From positions 2,046,001 to 2,110,000 of the forward strand of contig NZ_CP162004.1 of assembly GCF_040822115.1 (NCBI RefSeq): DNA of 64,000 bases, in the 5' to 3' direction. This stretch comes from Flavobacterium sp. WC2421. Its GTDB lineage: Bacteria > Bacteroidota > Bacteroidia > Flavobacteriales > Flavobacteriaceae. A model generated the notes under the pieces. It saw nothing but the letters and a program-made list of their open reading frames with translations. It was not told the origin of the DNA and searched no databases. Of this stretch, positions 17,303-22,437 are shown piece after piece; the first letter of the stretch is position 1; each line of letters begins with the position of its first letter. A program made the translations under genes and the position numbers.

Positions 17303-18400
17303 ATGGATTTTATATCTACCGAAGAAATTCTTAAAGAAAGGATTAAAGAATTATCTTGTTTATATGATGTTTCTTCAGTAATAATGCAACATGAAGATTC
17401 TGTTACAAATATTTTAGATAAAATTTGTTCCATCTTAAAATGCGCTTGGCGATTTTCTAATGATTCAATCGTAGAGTTAGAGTTGGATTCTTATTACCAT
17501 ACTACGGCTACAATTCCAGAACATACCGTTTTTCAAAAATCTTCCATTTCTATTTTTAATGAGAAAAAAGGGTATATTAAAGTGCATTATCCATCCGGAC
17601 AATTTTCTAAAAAACATTTTTTGGGTGATGAAGAAAAGCTACTTAATAAAGTGTCTTCAGATATTAGTGTTTTTTATGAGAGACATTTAAATAAAGACAA
17701 AGAAGAGCTTTTAAAGAGAAGTGCCGAGCGTGTCGATCGACTTTCTATTCTTGGTGAAATAACTGCAGGAATAGCTCATGAATTGAATACTCCACTTGGT
17801 AATATTCTTGGTTTTGCGGAATTTATTAAAGAAAGAACTACAGAAAAACAATCACAAATGGATAGTGCAAAGATTATTAAAGCAGCTATTTATTCTAGGG
17901 AGGTTGTGAAAAAACTGATGTTTTTTTCTTGTGAGATGCCACAAAACATGAAATTTGTAAAAATTACGCCCATAGTTACAGATGCTTTGAGCTTATTAGG
18001 ACCTAATTTTAAAAAAGCAGGTCTAAGTTATGAAGTCGATTTTAAGGATTTAGAATTAGAAGCGCAACTTGATCCCATTCAACTTACTCAAGTTTTATTT
18101 AATATCTTGATAAATTCGATCTATGTCTCCCCACTGAATACAGTAATTAAAGTTAGTGTATATACTGTCGAAGATCATTTTGTTATCGAAATAGGAGACC
18201 AAGGTCCTGGGATCAATAATGCTTATAAGTCTAAGATTTTTGAACCTTTCTTTACTACTAAGCCTATAGGCGAAGGTTCGGGATTAGGTTTGAGCGTGGT
18301 CCACGGGATTGTTAAAAGCCATAAAGGAGATATTTCTACCAGGGACAATCATCCTAATGGAACTATTTTTCAAGTTAGATTACCTTTAAAAATGTCTTAA
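17303..18400 (+). CDS. Cytoplasmic sensor histidine kinase
   Basis: 365 residues without membrane segments. Residues ~1-130 form a GAF/PAS-like sensor region with no recognised ligand motif. A linker helix leads to the H box GEITAGIAHELNTPLGN with phospho-acceptor His159. The ATPase domain shows the N box (ILINSIYVSP), G1 IGDQGPGI, F FEPFFTTKP and G2 GEGSGLGLSV. The NTPLGN form of the H box and the cytoplasmic location fit kinases paired with NtrC-type regulators. The stop overlaps the start of the regulator gene by one base (TAATG), so the two form a cognate pair. Confidence 0.93.
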   Translation: MDFISTEEILKERIKELSCLYDVSSVIMQHEDSVTNILDKICSILKCAWRFSNDSIVELELDSYYHTTATIPEHTVFQKSSISIFNEKKGYIKVHYPSGQFSKKHFLGDEEKLLNKVSSDISVFYERHLNKDKEELLKRSAERVDRLSILGEITAGIAHELNTPLGNILGFAEFIKERTTEKQSQMDSAKIIKAAIYSREVVKKLMFFSCEMPQNMKFVKITPIVTDALSLLGPNFKKAGLSYEVDFKDLELEAQLDPIQLTQVLFNILINSIYVSPLNTVIKVSVYTVEDHFVIEIGDQGPGINNAYKSKIFEPFFTTKPIGEGSGLGLSVVHGIVKSHKGDISTRDNHPNGTIFQVRLPLKMS

Positions 18401-19737
18401 TGAAATTAAAGAAAGAAAATATTTTAATAGTAGATGATAACTATGATATGCTTGAGTTGCTTCATCGCAATTTAAAAGCTCAAAATTTTCATACTTATAA
18501 GGCATCTTCGGTAACAGAGGCAATTGAAATTTTAAAATTAAGTACTATTGATTTATTGATTACGGATTTACAGATGCCTGGTATAAATGGAATTGAGTTA
18601 ATCAAATATGTTAGAGAGCATTTTCCCTTGATTCCAAAACTTGTAATTACAGGATTTCCTTCTGTTGACAGTGCTGTTGAAGCAGTTAAGTCTGGAGCCA
18701 TAGACTATTTAGCCAAACCATTTACTAATGAGGAACTCAAAAAAGCGGTGCAAAATTTGATTGATTCTAAAGAAAAAATCAATAATAGTATTGCAGTAGT
18801 TAAAAGCCTTAGTGTCGATACTAATATGGAATATGCTGGTATCGTCGGTCAGTCCCAGCAAATTGTTGAGTTAGTTGATTTAATTCAACGTGTAAAGGAT
18901 AATCGAGCAACGATACTTATCCAAGGAGAAAGCGGTACTGGAAAGGAATTGGTAGCTAGAGCAATTCATTATAAAGGAATATTTTCTTCAAAACCTTTTA
19001 TTGCTGTCAATTGTGGTGCAATACCTGAGAATTTAATGGAGTCGGAGCTTTTTGGTTATGTAAAAGGAGCTTTTACGGGTGCTAATGAAACTAGAGGAGG
19101 TTTTTTTCAAGCTGCAGATGGTGGCACTATTTTTTTAGATGAAATTGGTACAGCACCGTTGAATGTTCAAACTCGATTGTTGCGAGTTTTACAAGAAAAA
19201 GAAGTGTGTATGATAGGCTCTCAAAAAGCACAAAAAGTGGAATTGAGAATAATCACTGCTACAAATAATGATCTTTATGAAATGTCTAATAACGGGAGTT
19301 TTCGTGAAGACCTTTACTATAGATTAAATGTTGTTAATATTGAAACTCCACCTTTAAGACTAAGAAAAGATGATATAAAGCTGCTCTTGACCACTTTTCT
19401 TACAAAATATGGTAATGAATATAATAAACCAAATATTACAATTTCTGATAAAGTAATAAAGGTTTTATTGCGTCATTCTTGGCCGGGAAATGTCAGGGAG
19501 CTTGAAAATGTTGTTCAAAGAATGATCATCATGAGTAATGAGCAAATTGAGGTTAGTGATGTTCCAGAATATTTAAAATATCCGATGCCTTTTGAAAAAG
19601 AAGAGTTGAAGTCGCTAAAAGACATTGAGAAAGCACATATTCTTAAAGTGCTTTTGGCAGTTGATAATAATAAAACACGAGCGGCAGAGATTCTTCAAAT
19701 TGATCGAAAAACGCTTCGTCAAAAATTAGATAACTAG
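18400..19737 (+). CDS. NtrC-family sigma-54-dependent response regulator
   Basis: 445 residues with the full three-domain layout. The receiver domain has Asp12/Asp13, phospho-acceptor Asp56 in LLITDLQMP and Lys107. The AAA+ domain has Walker A GESGTGKE, the sigma-54 contact loop GAFTGA (223-228), Walker B GGTIFLDEIG and the arginine-finger region FREDLYYRLNVV. The C-terminal Fis-type helix-turn-helix has NKTRAAEILQIDRKTLRQKL. It activates sigma-54 RNA polymerase by ATP hydrolysis from upstream sites. Its start overlaps the kinase stop. Candidate sites and a sigma-54 promoter lie just downstream, pointing to the 74-residue gene and glutamate dehydrogenase as targets. Confidence 0.96.
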   Translation: MKLKKENILIVDDNYDMLELLHRNLKAQNFHTYKASSVTEAIEILKLSTIDLLITDLQMPGINGIELIKYVREHFPLIPKLVITGFPSVDSAVEAVKSGAIDYLAKPFTNEELKKAVQNLIDSKEKINNSIAVVKSLSVDTNMEYAGIVGQSQQIVELVDLIQRVKDNRATILIQGESGTGKELVARAIHYKGIFSSKPFIAVNCGAIPENLMESELFGYVKGAFTGANETRGGFFQAADGGTIFLDEIGTAPLNVQTRLLRVLQEKEVCMIGSQKAQKVELRIITATNNDLYEMSNNGSFREDLYYRLNVVNIETPPLRLRKDDIKLLLTTFLTKYGNEYNKPNITISDKVIKVLLRHSWPGNVRELENVVQRMIIMSNEQIEVSDVPEYLKYPMPFEKEELKSLKDIEKAHILKVLLAVDNNKTRAAEILQIDRKTLRQKLDN

Positions 19738-19749
19738 CTTTTTTTTAGC

Positions 19750-19782
19750 GGGTAAATTCTCCTATATCGGGTAATTTCTCCT
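19750..19782 (+). promoter_or_regulatory. Candidate upstream activator sites (two dyads)
   Basis: GGGTAAATTCTCCT at 19750-19763 and GGGTAATTTCTCCT at 19769-19782 differ at one base and are 19 bases apart, close to two helical turns. Each is an imperfect dyad of form GGnnAA-TT-nCC. They sit about 125-145 bases upstream of the predicted start site of the sigma-54 promoter, the usual enhancer distance. Being adjacent to an NtrC-type gene suggests that protein binds here. Confidence 0.6.
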
Positions 19783-19818
19783 CAGTTATTTTTCACATAA
19801 TATCATTTTATTTTTCTT

Positions 19819-19848
19819 AAACCCCTTAATTTTAAGGGGTTTGTTGTT
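19819..19848 (+). terminator. Terminator after the response regulator gene
   Basis: Perfect arms AAACCCCTTAA / TTAAGGGGTTT around a very short loop, followed by GTTGTTTTT. It separates the kinase-regulator operon from the sigma-54 unit. Confidence 0.8.
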
Positions 19849-19871
19849 TTTGGTATGCGCTAAATATTCGA

Positions 19872-19888
19872 TTGGCATATCATTTGTC
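19872..19888 (+). promoter_or_regulatory. Sigma-54 promoter
   Basis: TTGGCATATCATTTGTC matches the -24/-12 consensus TGGCAC-N5-TTGC: the -24 TGGCA is intact, the -12 reads TTTGT, and the GG-to-TG spacing is exact. Transcription should begin near 19899, about 40 bases before the ATG at 19940. Confidence 0.7.
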
Positions 19889-19939
19889 TATTGTTAGGGA
19901 AAACAACTGTTTTTATATAAACAAGAATTAAAATTATAA

Positions 19940-20164
19940 ATGATGAACGCATTAAGTAAACAAGGAATTGATCATGTTCCTATAGTCATCGATTCAAAAA
20001 TTAGAGAGGACAAAAGAATTATTGATGTTAATTTCTCTTTTATTACAGAAGGAAAATTGGTTTCAGCAAATGATGTGATTAGAGGGTTGTGCATTAATTG
20101 TGATAAAAAAGCGCATTGTGCGTGGCAAGGAAATAATAAAGTGTTTTGTGAACATTATAAATAA
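19940..20164 (+). CDS. Small four-cysteine protein, function unknown
   Basis: 74 residues (or 73 from the second ATG). No family recognised. The N-terminal 45 residues look like a small mixed domain. The C-terminus carries Cys51, Cys54, Cys60 and Cys70 in a CX2CX5CX9C pattern ending CEHYK, which would suit zinc or an iron-sulfur cluster. It is six bases from the start of the dehydrogenase gene, so the two are cotranscribed, most likely from the sigma-54 promoter at 19872-19888. Its role could be a nitrogen- or redox-linked partner of the dehydrogenase; this is inference from position only. Confidence 0.75.
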   Translation: MMNALSKQGIDHVPIVIDSKIREDKRIIDVNFSFITEGKLVSANDVIRGLCINCDKKAHCAWQGNNKVFCEHYK

Positions 20165-20170
20165 GAGAAA

Positions 20171-21451
20171 ATGATAGATATAAAAGAGGTAGCTAAAAAA
20201 AGTATGTTAGATAATGTAATGTATCAGTTTAATAAAACGGCTGATGCCATTAAATTAAATCCAAATATTAGAAATATTTTATCAATAACAAACAATGAAA
20301 TTATTCTTCATTTTCCTGTAAAAATGGACACAGGTGAAGTTAAGATTTTTACAGGATATCGTGTACAGCATAATAATGCATTAGGACCATATAAGGGAGG
20401 GTTGCGTTACCATCCAACTGTAGATGTTGAAGACGCGAAGGCGCTAGCTATGTGGATGACATGGAAAACTTCATTGGCAGGATTACCTTATGGTGGTGCC
20501 AAAGGTGGAATTCAAATTGATCCAAGAGACTATTCTATAGGGGAACTAGAGCGAATAACAAGACGTTTTACTTATGCCCTAGGTGAAAATATAGGTCCCG
20601 ATCATGATATTCCAGCTCCAGATGTTAATACAAATGAGCAAACGATGGCATGGATGGCAGATACTTTTATGTCTACTAAATCAACTTCGGAACGCTCTCG
20701 TAATCAACATGTAGTTACAGGAAAGCCAGTGGGATCTGGTGGGTTAGAAGGAAGAAATCGTTCTACTGGTTATGGAGTGTATTTAACTATTAAATTATTG
20801 TATAAAAGTAAGGGGGAAAACTTGAAAGGAAAACGATTTATTGTTCAAGGTTTTGGTAATGTGGGATACTGGACTTCTCATTTTTTAACAAGTGAAGGAG
20901 CAATTTTACTTGCTGTACAAGATGCTCACGCCACTATTATTAATGAAAATGGAATTACGGTCGAAGATTTATTTGAACATTCAAAACCAAGAAAAGGATC
21001 AATCAAGGGATTCGCAGGAGCTGAGGAAATTAATCCTGAATTGTTTTTTGGGCTTCCATGTGATATCCTTATTCCCGCAGCATTAGGAAACCAAATTACG
21101 GAGGAAAATGCTTATTTAGTAAAAGCGGATGTTGTGGCTGAAGGGGCAAATGGACCAATCGATATGGAAGGTGAAAAAATATTATTGCAAAATGGGATTA
21201 CCATTATACCAGATATTCTATGTAATTCAGGAGGAGTGATAGGAAGTTATTTTGAGTGGTTGCAAAATAAGAATGGAGAACTTTGGCAATTGGAAGAAGT
21301 GATGCAAAAGATTGATAAAAAACTCACAGAGGTATTCTACAAAGTTGAGGGACTAGTAATAGAGGGAAAAATTGATTGGAGAACGGCGGCATATATTTTA
21401 GCGATTACTAGGATTGAAACTGCTTACATTCAAAGAGGTATATTTCCATAA
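20171..21451 (+). CDS. Glu/Leu/Phe/Val dehydrogenase (glutamate dehydrogenase type)
   Basis: 426 residues, the size of hexameric glutamate dehydrogenases. The substrate-binding and catalytic lysines are visible in GPYKGGLRYH (Lys75), MTWKTSLAGL (Lys99) and PYGGAKGG (Lys111). The Rossmann nucleotide-binding motif is GFGNVGYW. It interconverts glutamate with 2-oxoglutarate plus ammonia. Cofactor preference cannot be read safely. It lies directly after the four-cysteine gene behind a sigma-54 promoter, next to a kinase and NtrC-type regulator, which implies nitrogen- or carbon-responsive control. A hairpin follows the stop. Confidence 0.93.
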   Translation: MIDIKEVAKKSMLDNVMYQFNKTADAIKLNPNIRNILSITNNEIILHFPVKMDTGEVKIFTGYRVQHNNALGPYKGGLRYHPTVDVEDAKALAMWMTWKTSLAGLPYGGAKGGIQIDPRDYSIGELERITRRFTYALGENIGPDHDIPAPDVNTNEQTMAWMADTFMSTKSTSERSRNQHVVTGKPVGSGGLEGRNRSTGYGVYLTIKLLYKSKGENLKGKRFIVQGFGNVGYWTSHFLTSEGAILLAVQDAHATIINENGITVEDLFEHSKPRKGSIKGFAGAEEINPELFFGLPCDILIPAALGNQITEENAYLVKADVVAEGANGPIDMEGEKILLQNGITIIPDILCNSGGVIGSYFEWLQNKNGELWQLEEVMQKIDKKLTEVFYKVEGLVIEGKIDWRTAAYILAITRIETAYIQRGIFP

Positions 21452-21541: not shown

Positions 21542-21967
21542 ATGAAATACGGTCAATTAATAATAGATGAAAAGGAGTACGGTTTATTGATGCAAAGTAT
21601 AGCGAATTCACGGAGTCACGAAGATCAGATTTATAGAGATTCAATCAAAAAATTGAAAGCCGAAATGTTGACGGCTAAGTTAATGAATTATAACACCATT
21701 CCGGAAGACGTGATAAGGTATAATTCAATTGTTAAGATCAAGACTCCATTTAATGTGGAATGCTGTTATCAAATTGTAACTCCAGAAAAGAGTAATATTA
21801 AACAAAATAAAATTTCGATTTTATCCCCAATGGCATTAGCACTTTTTGGTTACGCCAATGGAGATACAATTATTTGGAAATTCCCTACAGGTATTAATAC
21901 GATAGAAATTATTTCAGTTTCACAAGAAAATTGCCTATTAAATAAAGAAATCATATGGAAGATTTAA
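21542..21967 (+). CDS. Rnk/GreA-family protein
   Basis: 141 residues. The C-terminal ~85 residues match the FKBP-like C-terminal domain of GreA/GreB and Rnk: VIRYNSIVKI, then ISILSPMALALFGYANGDTI and a final strand. The N-terminus is a short helical pair (residues ~15-50) rather than the long coiled coil of GreA, and the acidic DE pair that activates RNA polymerase cleavage is not seen. This fits an Rnk-like protein that binds RNA polymerase and may compete with Gre factors. The next gene starts 13 bases before its stop, so the two are translationally coupled. Confidence 0.75.
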   Translation: MKYGQLIIDEKEYGLLMQSIANSRSHEDQIYRDSIKKLKAEMLTAKLMNYNTIPEDVIRYNSIVKIKTPFNVECCYQIVTPEKSNIKQNKISILSPMALALFGYANGDTIIWKFPTGINTIEIISVSQENCLLNKEIIWKI

Positions 21968-22374
21968 TTTATAAACACGAGACGGTTGAGGAGATTCAGA
22001 TGAAGTTTATGGATAAAGATATTGAACTTTGGAAAGAAGACATTTCTATTATTAGGGTAGAAATTCTTTTTTTTAAAAGAATGTTGACTTCATCTATTTT
22101 TAAAAATTTGAATCCCAATCAACAAGGAAAAGATGATTTAATTAATGACTTGACGTATGTTAAAGAAATAAATGAATCCTATTACAATTTATTATTGGAT
22201 TTTGTAAATAAGTTGAGTAAAATAAAGGAATGTGATGATGTTCAATGCGAAACATTCTATTTGAATAATCATACAAAGTTTAGAAAAGATATTGAGAGTC
22301 ATTTTTCGGCTTATCGATTTTATAAGATGAATATTATTTTGTTTTTTGACAATTGTCTCGACGATAAAATATAA
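21955..22374 (+). CDS. Hypothetical helical protein overlapping the Rnk-like gene
   Basis: 139 residues, no family recognised. Sequence is strongly helical with heptad-like hydrophobic spacing (EEIQMKFMDKDIELWKEDIS, then LLLDFVNKLSKIKE) and no signal peptide or membrane segment. It starts inside the last codons of the Rnk-like gene (13-base overlap), so both are made from one message, which points to a shared task. A strong hairpin follows the stop. Confidence 0.65.
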   Translation: MEDLIYKHETVEEIQMKFMDKDIELWKEDISIIRVEILFFKRMLTSSIFKNLNPNQQGKDDLINDLTYVKEINESYYNLLLDFVNKLSKIKECDDVQCETFYLNNHTKFRKDIESHFSAYRFYKMNIILFFDNCLDDKI

Positions 22375-22401
22375 AAAAAGTTTGTGGTTTACTTTTGGTT
22401 G

Positions 22402-22437
22402 AAAACACATTTGGAGTAAATTCAAATGTGTTTTTTT
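22402..22437. terminator. Bidirectional terminator
   Basis: Perfect arms AAAACACATTTG / CAAATGTGTTTT followed by more T. It lies between converging genes and should serve both. Confidence 0.8.

Follow-up and report, generated by a model that had tools for sequence, protein, structure and literature searches.

A predicted two-component sigma-54 circuit for a four-cysteine miniprotein and glutamate dehydrogenase operon in Flavobacterium sp. WC2421

The stretch of DNA analysed here (the window: 64,000 nucleotides, positions 2046001-2110000 of the 3.83 Mb single-contig genome of Flavobacterium sp. WC2421) very probably carries a local two-component sigma-54 switch that drives an operon for a four-cysteine miniprotein and a glutamate dehydrogenase. 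The cytoplasmic kinase encoded at 17303-18400 would phosphorylate the adjacent NtrC-type regulator (18400-19737), which in its activated form would bind an enhancer formed by the paired sites (19750-19782) and loop to sigma-54 RNA polymerase at 19873-19887. The operon would start near 19899 and include the four-cysteine and glutamate dehydrogenase genes and probably the Rnk-like and 139-aa genes, and a terminator would part the regulator transcript from it. The circuit probably controls this one operon only. The parts, their conservation, spacing and co-occurrence, and their adjacency in two phyla were computed here; we infer phosphorylation within the pair, binding to the sites, the start site, the operon extent and the single-operon scope.

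All genes of the module lie on the + strand. The sensor histidine kinase (17303..18400, 365 aa) presents HisKA and HATPase_c domains by Pfam, which detected no sensor domain. Its N-terminal helix/strand domain is related to that of planctomycete kinases in an alignment of 27 kinases, and, within a set of 46 kinases, its N-terminal 140 aa gave E values of 1e-8 to 1e-15 with six from planctomycetes. The ZraS core is the top fold match of the predicted kinase model (pLDDT 82). No sensor fold is claimed, the best 50 matches listed in the full-kinase fold search being kinase cores and poorly superposed whole kinases. The kinase N-terminus (window 17303-17400) shows an invariant L-ER-KEL-C pattern, and the cysteine at residue 19 is present in 27/27 aligned kinases, two of them planctomycete; Cys19 could be a redox-sensing residue.

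The start of the response regulator gene (18400..19737, 445 aa) overlaps the kinase stop by one base. The regulator, whose closest relatives are found in Flavobacterium, has an intact receiver, a Sigma54_activat AAA+ domain and a Fis-type HTH, each above the Pfam gathering score, and its HTH helix reads IDRKTLR. The GAFTGA loop can be read in it and is exact in 48/51 orthologues (GAFSGA in L032), in line with the original prediction of an NtrC-type protein with this loop. The best-scoring solved structure by sequence is also an NtrC-family regulator (4l4u). NtrC-family activators bind paired enhancers and remodel the sigma-54 holoenzyme via looping. By its domains, the GAFTGA loop, the rpoN gene and the paired sites, the protein classifies as a predicted NtrC-family sigma-54 enhancer-binding response regulator.

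Behind the regulator, 19940..20164 encodes a 74-aa miniprotein with the motif C-x2-C-x5-C-x9-C (cysteines 51, 54, 60 and 70). It is followed by a 426-aa member of the glutamate dehydrogenase family (ELFV_dehydrog by Pfam and NCBIfam; 20171..21451), which is not the sole one, since the genome has four ELFV family members. The next gene (21542..21967) encodes a protein with a GreA/GreB C-terminal domain (Pfam, NCBIfam), called Rnk-like here, which scores 66.5 of 109 bits, below the cut-off, against the NCBIfam model of Rnk (nucleoside diphosphate kinase regulator). The last gene of the module (21955..22374) encodes a 139-aa protein without a family in Pfam or NCBIfam, and a terminator-like hairpin 3' of it (22401..22435, + strand) may be the operon end.

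The two predicted activator sites, GGGTAAATTCTCCT (distal, 19750..19763, + strand) and GGGTAATTTCTCCT (proximal, 19769..19782, + strand), were called from the letters, a matrix and conservation. They stand 19 bp apart, start to start, within an 18-nt direct repeat of 89% identity. They had been described as near-identical dyads; the sites and their spacing agree with the letters, and the dyad symmetry turned out to be weak in the window, with complementary position pairs at 4/7 in the distal and 3/7 in the proximal site. Some relatives are much more symmetric at this place, such as CGGGGAGATTCTCCCCGG in L111. With a start at about 19899, the site centres fall near -142 and -123, in agreement with the distance of about 125-145 bases that had been proposed.

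Within this genome, the site at two or fewer mismatches gave 91 matches versus 66 for the control, and the sole pair of distinct sites within 60 bp in that list is formed by the two of the window. Shuffled windows contained at least two matches at this threshold in 24/100 cases; both real sites are exact. When the enhancer matrix was run 60-260 bp upstream of the 24 sigma-54 promoter strings of the genome, the window scored 19.1 with a second site at 14.8 and the other 23 strings at most 6.5, with a training set that includes the window's own sites. A wider regulon was considered and set aside: the third exact copy of the site is located inside a 590-aa reading frame, and a degenerate consensus applied to the loci at other promoter strings or single sites gave a pair, a weak one, in L054 alone (matrix scores 0.5 and -2.6). 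The remaining argument is comparative.

The predicted -24/-12 promoter element, TGGCATATCATTTGT (19873..19887, + strand), is supported by its letters and by conservation, and its predicted start is near 19899. In TTGGCATATCATTTGTC, GG occupies 19874-75 and GT 19886-87 with ten bases between, which bears out the exact spacing that had been noted. The standard sigma-54 spacing is GG-N10-GC, and a GC ending is commoner than GT; the second element ends in GT in the window and in GC or GT in most loci. The string TGGCAYN5TTGY occurs 24 times genome-wide versus 20 in a reversed control and, not being above chance, was rejected as standalone evidence. The circuit would fail without sigma-54, and the genome does carry one rpoN gene (PF04552, E 3.5e-52). 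The sigma-54 activator domain is matched ten times in the genome: four matches are strong, at E 9e-63 or better, and the other six clear the cut-off only weakly.

An intrinsic terminator was found between the sites and the promoter, as originally predicted (19818..19843, + strand; 11 pairs, 4 G-C, then T-rich). It probably ends the kinase-regulator transcript. Inspection by eye showed similar hairpins only in loci closely related to that of the window. The terminator overlaps a weak IHF-like match (AAACCCCTTAATT, 7 of 9), and the window and its near relatives have the hairpin at the place aligned to an IHF-like element of other loci. This YAANNNNTTGATW-like element stands 42-43 nt before -24 in 13/29 loci (L013, L014, L016, L018-L023, L026, L034, L037 and L041). 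These 13 share one 3-nt position, where the shuffle maximum was 3 in 200, relatedness not being controlled. The element is good in relatives; the window match is about the shuffle mean of 7.1.

A collection scan found 45 relatives of the regulator. Seven matches covering about the receiver only (L043-L049) were left out, and the 38 near full-length ones (L005-L042) together with the window gave 39 regulator-to-next-gene regions. The strict promoter form [TA]GGCA[CT]N5TTG[CT] is present in 31/39 regions and a relaxed -24/-12 form in 36/39, versus 0.2 expected from shuffles; no relaxed form was found in L029, L030 and L033. Paired sites matching a consensus fitted by eye occur in 24/39 regions (0.9 expected). 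To avoid the circularity of that fit, a consensus taken from the window alone was applied to the 38 other loci. It found a site in 12/38 at two or fewer mismatches (0.05 expected) and in 21/38 at three or fewer (0.88 expected), leaving 17/38 without a site at the latter threshold. Pairs 18-20 apart appeared in 9/38 loci with at most four mismatches per site (0.0 expected) and in 16/38 with at most five (0.66 expected). The near-duplicates L015, L017, L026 and L038 are dropped from one of the two counts made with the window-only consensus. The related loci are not independent, and some of the motifs were chosen post hoc.

Three sets of stretches served as controls: 27 lying behind the dehydrogenase, 27 behind the 139-aa gene and 38 in front of the kinase. 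They contained no single site at two or fewer mismatches; at three mismatches there were none after the dehydrogenase, two after the 139-aa gene and three before the kinase, and one pair was seen at five mismatches. Pairwise column identity over 29 regions, with the near-duplicates L015 and L017 dropped as in the IHF analysis, was 0.64 in site 1, 0.57 in site 2, 0.74 in the -24/-12 element and 0.50 in the terminator stretch, compared with 0.36 outside sites and promoter. In L025 (5700-5850), repeated GC-rich palindromes of the GACCCCAGCGGGGTC type lie in an intergenic region that is otherwise AT-rich. The gene set has a patchy distribution. For the regulator, matches at E 1e-130 or better were found in 7/296 sampled genomes of its own phylum (its own genome included), from four genera of one family.

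The arrangement of sites and promoter is conserved as well. In 30/36 promoter-bearing loci the distance from the centre of the distal site to -24 is either 103-105 or 114-117 bp, two groups that are about one helical turn apart, the window being in the longer group. L025, L031, L032, L035, L038 and L040 have a different distance or one clear site. With other Flavobacteriaceae and planctomycetes added, 39/53 regions have their two top-scoring matrix sites at a spacing of 17-20 bp. The distance classes cluster modulo 10.5 bp (p 0.02 for the distal and 0.006 for the proximal site; 0.12 for planctomycetes alone), in a test of seven distance classes picked by hand with L111 and L115 (one site) left out; L147 is off-phase. 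These distances are suggestive of changes by whole helical turns. Conservation of the dyads and the promoter in relatives was part of the original prediction, and both do recur in numerous relatives, close and distant, with a nearly constant distance between them.

Several other readings of these elements were weighed. The sites are directly behind the regulator stop codon and some NtrC-family proteins autoregulate, so the sites, bound by the neighbouring regulator, could chiefly serve autoregulation of the kinase-regulator operon or repression. We consider this very unlikely, since the stretch before the kinase has a site in 0/38 loci at two or fewer mismatches and in 3/38 at three or fewer, and since the -24/-12 element lies downstream at a conserved distance whose shifts resemble whole helical turns. 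Still less likely is that the repeats belong to another regulator and that the NtrC-type neighbour is accidental. The genome does have three other strong sigma-54 activator matches, but the sites follow orthologues of the window regulator in two phyla, after cargo swaps too, and most loci with a four-cysteine gene have nearly the same HTH helix, AAEIL.IDRKTLR (L025, L030, L031, L121 and a few others being exceptions).

The count of 24 promoter strings against 20 in the reversed control would also fit a chance resemblance, with the operon transcribed by a housekeeping sigma factor. This reading is highly improbable given the 36/39 regions with a -24/-12 element at the orthologous place and at a near-fixed distance to the sites, and given that, out of the 24 strings, strong upstream sites accompany that of the window only. 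A local switch acting through the neighbouring regulator is the preferred reading. The original prediction that the regulator controls the four-cysteine gene and the dehydrogenase is supported by the link being kept in 27/39 loci for the former and 28/39 for the latter. The Rnk-like gene is present in 32/39 and the 139-aa gene in 28/39. The gene order is kept across loci while the flanking genes differ.

Concerning the four-cysteine protein, 17 aligned Bacteroidota copies have six invariant columns: the four cysteines, a Lys and a Glu. Pfam gave no match for the window copy and chance-level matches under the cut-offs for two others, and NCBIfam gave none for the three members tested. A search with the tandem form, which carries the motif twice, retrieved 2,913 proteins at E 1e-6 or better, and no Pfam domain was present among the 120 matches listed. 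These searches place the protein in a large family that no known model describes. Its cysteine pattern suggests that it may bind a metal or an Fe-S cluster. The structure model (pLDDT 47) was too poor for use. A single-sequence search, an insensitive method, found the protein in 2/59 other relatives, with one of the two hits coming from the 36 same-genus relatives.

In 12/39 loci the four-cysteine motif is missing, and some lineages carry a different cargo behind the promoter. Nine loci from F. hydatis, F. pectinovorum DSM 6368 and their kin (L020, L022, L023, L024, L026, L027, L029, L034 and L038) have AraC-type genes and no dehydrogenase, the AraC-type assignment having been checked by Pfam for one of these genes. 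Two or more AraC-type genes are present in these loci, with DMP19-like or Rnk-like genes in some. Eight of the nine retain the promoter, which reads AGGCA, and in 9/9 the HTH helix ends in DRKTLN or DRKTLS, not DRKTLR. In two loci of other Flavobacteriaceae genera (L119 5783-8760 and L121 6228-9260), a 120-126-aa protein, probably exported, is encoded between regulator and dehydrogenase, and a Rnk-like gene stands behind the dehydrogenase.

Comparable loci were also found in planctomycetes. L040, a Brocadiia MAG contig whose regulator is 50% identical to that of the window, carries paired sites and TTGGCACGCTAATTGC, and encodes a 91-aa protein with two copies of the four-cysteine motif. A close orthologue of its regulator (at least 57% identity) is present in 11/199 sampled genomes of the phylum, the genome of L040 included, and three more show a match at 44-46%. 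The tandem four-cysteine protein was found in 17/392 planctomycete genomes, in 12 of which the regulator is directly upstream on the same contig (truncated by the contig end in G154 and split over two frames in G627). As for the other five, the two genes are on separate contigs in G255 and G134, G187 has a weak four-cysteine match about 1 kb behind the regulator, and no adjacent regulator was found in G177 and G642. The four-cysteine gene occurs in 10/11 genomes with the regulator versus 2/188 others, one of the two being G154, a count which assumes that the 392-genome draw contains the 199-genome draw.

The commoner planctomycete cargo consists of NuoE- and/or NuoF-like genes, located behind the four-cysteine gene in 12/17 genomes (on another contig in G082); seven of these 12 also have Fer2 and GltB-domain genes. 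A glutamate dehydrogenase gene lies there in G209 (41% to that of L035) and G154 (55% to that of L039), so that the order regulator, four-cysteine protein, dehydrogenase also exists in two planctomycete genomes. Neither cargo was seen behind the four-cysteine gene in G642, G134 and G187. In L145 (1276-3844), two consecutive dehydrogenase genes follow the tandem four-cysteine gene. A site matrix trained on 32 Bacteroidota sites only gave a best p of 0.01 or less in 7/12 of the planctomycete regions between regulator and four-cysteine gene and of 0.06-0.19 in the remaining 5/12, with the top two sites 17-20 apart in 8/12. A loose -24/-12 form, for which there is no chance expectation, matched in 7/12 of these regions and not in 5/12.

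The mechanism is that of textbook sigma-54/NtrC systems, and the circuit is a new member. NtrB/NtrC, AtoS/AtoC and ZraS/ZraR share with the window the receiver, the GAFTGA AAA+ domain and the Fis HTH, and in NtrC-family systems the upstream sites likewise come in pairs, some 120-145 bp ahead of a -24/-12 promoter, whereas the site and the target operon are different. Among NCBIfam models the kinase scores best with AtoS, and the regulator with AtoC, followed by NtrC. The regulator falls far under the cut-offs of AtoC (397.6 of 714 bits), TIGR01818 ntrC (388.2 of 558.6) and ZraR (356.8 of 760), and an assignment as AtoC, ZraR or NtrC proper was discarded on these three equivalog models.

The sigma-54 regulon of F. 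psychrophilum, from the same genus, has the same type of -24/-12 motif (SM4), and mutating the promoter of one operon was reported to show that the motif matters. The targets named in the accessible text are chaperone, envelope and gliding genes; the main text of that article contains neither 'glutamate dehydrogenase' nor 'gdh' (PMC9723704). In Desulfovibrio vulgaris, most sigma-54 enhancer-binding proteins control one to four operons, small regulons that resemble the window circuit in its predicted scope, and the main text of the report has no GGGTA string and no glutamate dehydrogenase (PMC4641369). A cross-phyla survey lists glutamate dehydrogenases (COG0334) among sigma-54 targets in Bacillota, and its accessible text names no Bacteroidota glutamate dehydrogenase and no four-cysteine protein (PMC12316311). 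The planctomycete cargo, not that of the window, is reminiscent of the Sporomusa-type Nfn transhydrogenase (Stn): both have NuoE- and NuoF-like proteins, according to the accessible text on the latter, where the third Stn subunit is GltD/NuoG-like (PMC7483475). L040 differs in encoding Fer2/Fer4 on a protein of its own and a GltB-type Glu_synthase domain on another. No description of the window circuit or its regulon was found in the literature searched, from which subscription journals were mostly missing.

Both kinds of cargo, glutamate dehydrogenase and the NuoE/NuoF/GltB-like proteins, are linked to glutamate or NAD(P)H. As a lead, this suggests a redox or ammonium-assimilation signal, and the output of the circuit may serve the glutamate/NAD(P)H balance. 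A broader reading, possible but doubtful, is that the kinase, the regulator, the paired GGGKA...TMCCC enhancer and the four-cysteine protein form a portable unit, spread between Bacteroidota and Planctomycetota by descent or transfer, that docks varied NAD(P)H-linked enzymes (glutamate dehydrogenase or a NuoE/NuoF/Fer2/GltB-like complex), with the four-cysteine protein as a metal- or redox-responsive partner tuning or assembling the enzyme. If so, the switch would sense and correct an imbalance of reducing power or glutamate at two levels.

For the predicted local switch, the regulator, site, promoter and operon can be named from the sequence, and each is directly testable, in a phylum for which few mapped sigma-54 circuits were found in the literature searched. 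The interest lies in the recurring pairing, in two phyla, of this activator with an uncharacterised four-cysteine family, whose association with a dedicated activator and with enzymes linked to glutamate or NADH is a first lead to its function.
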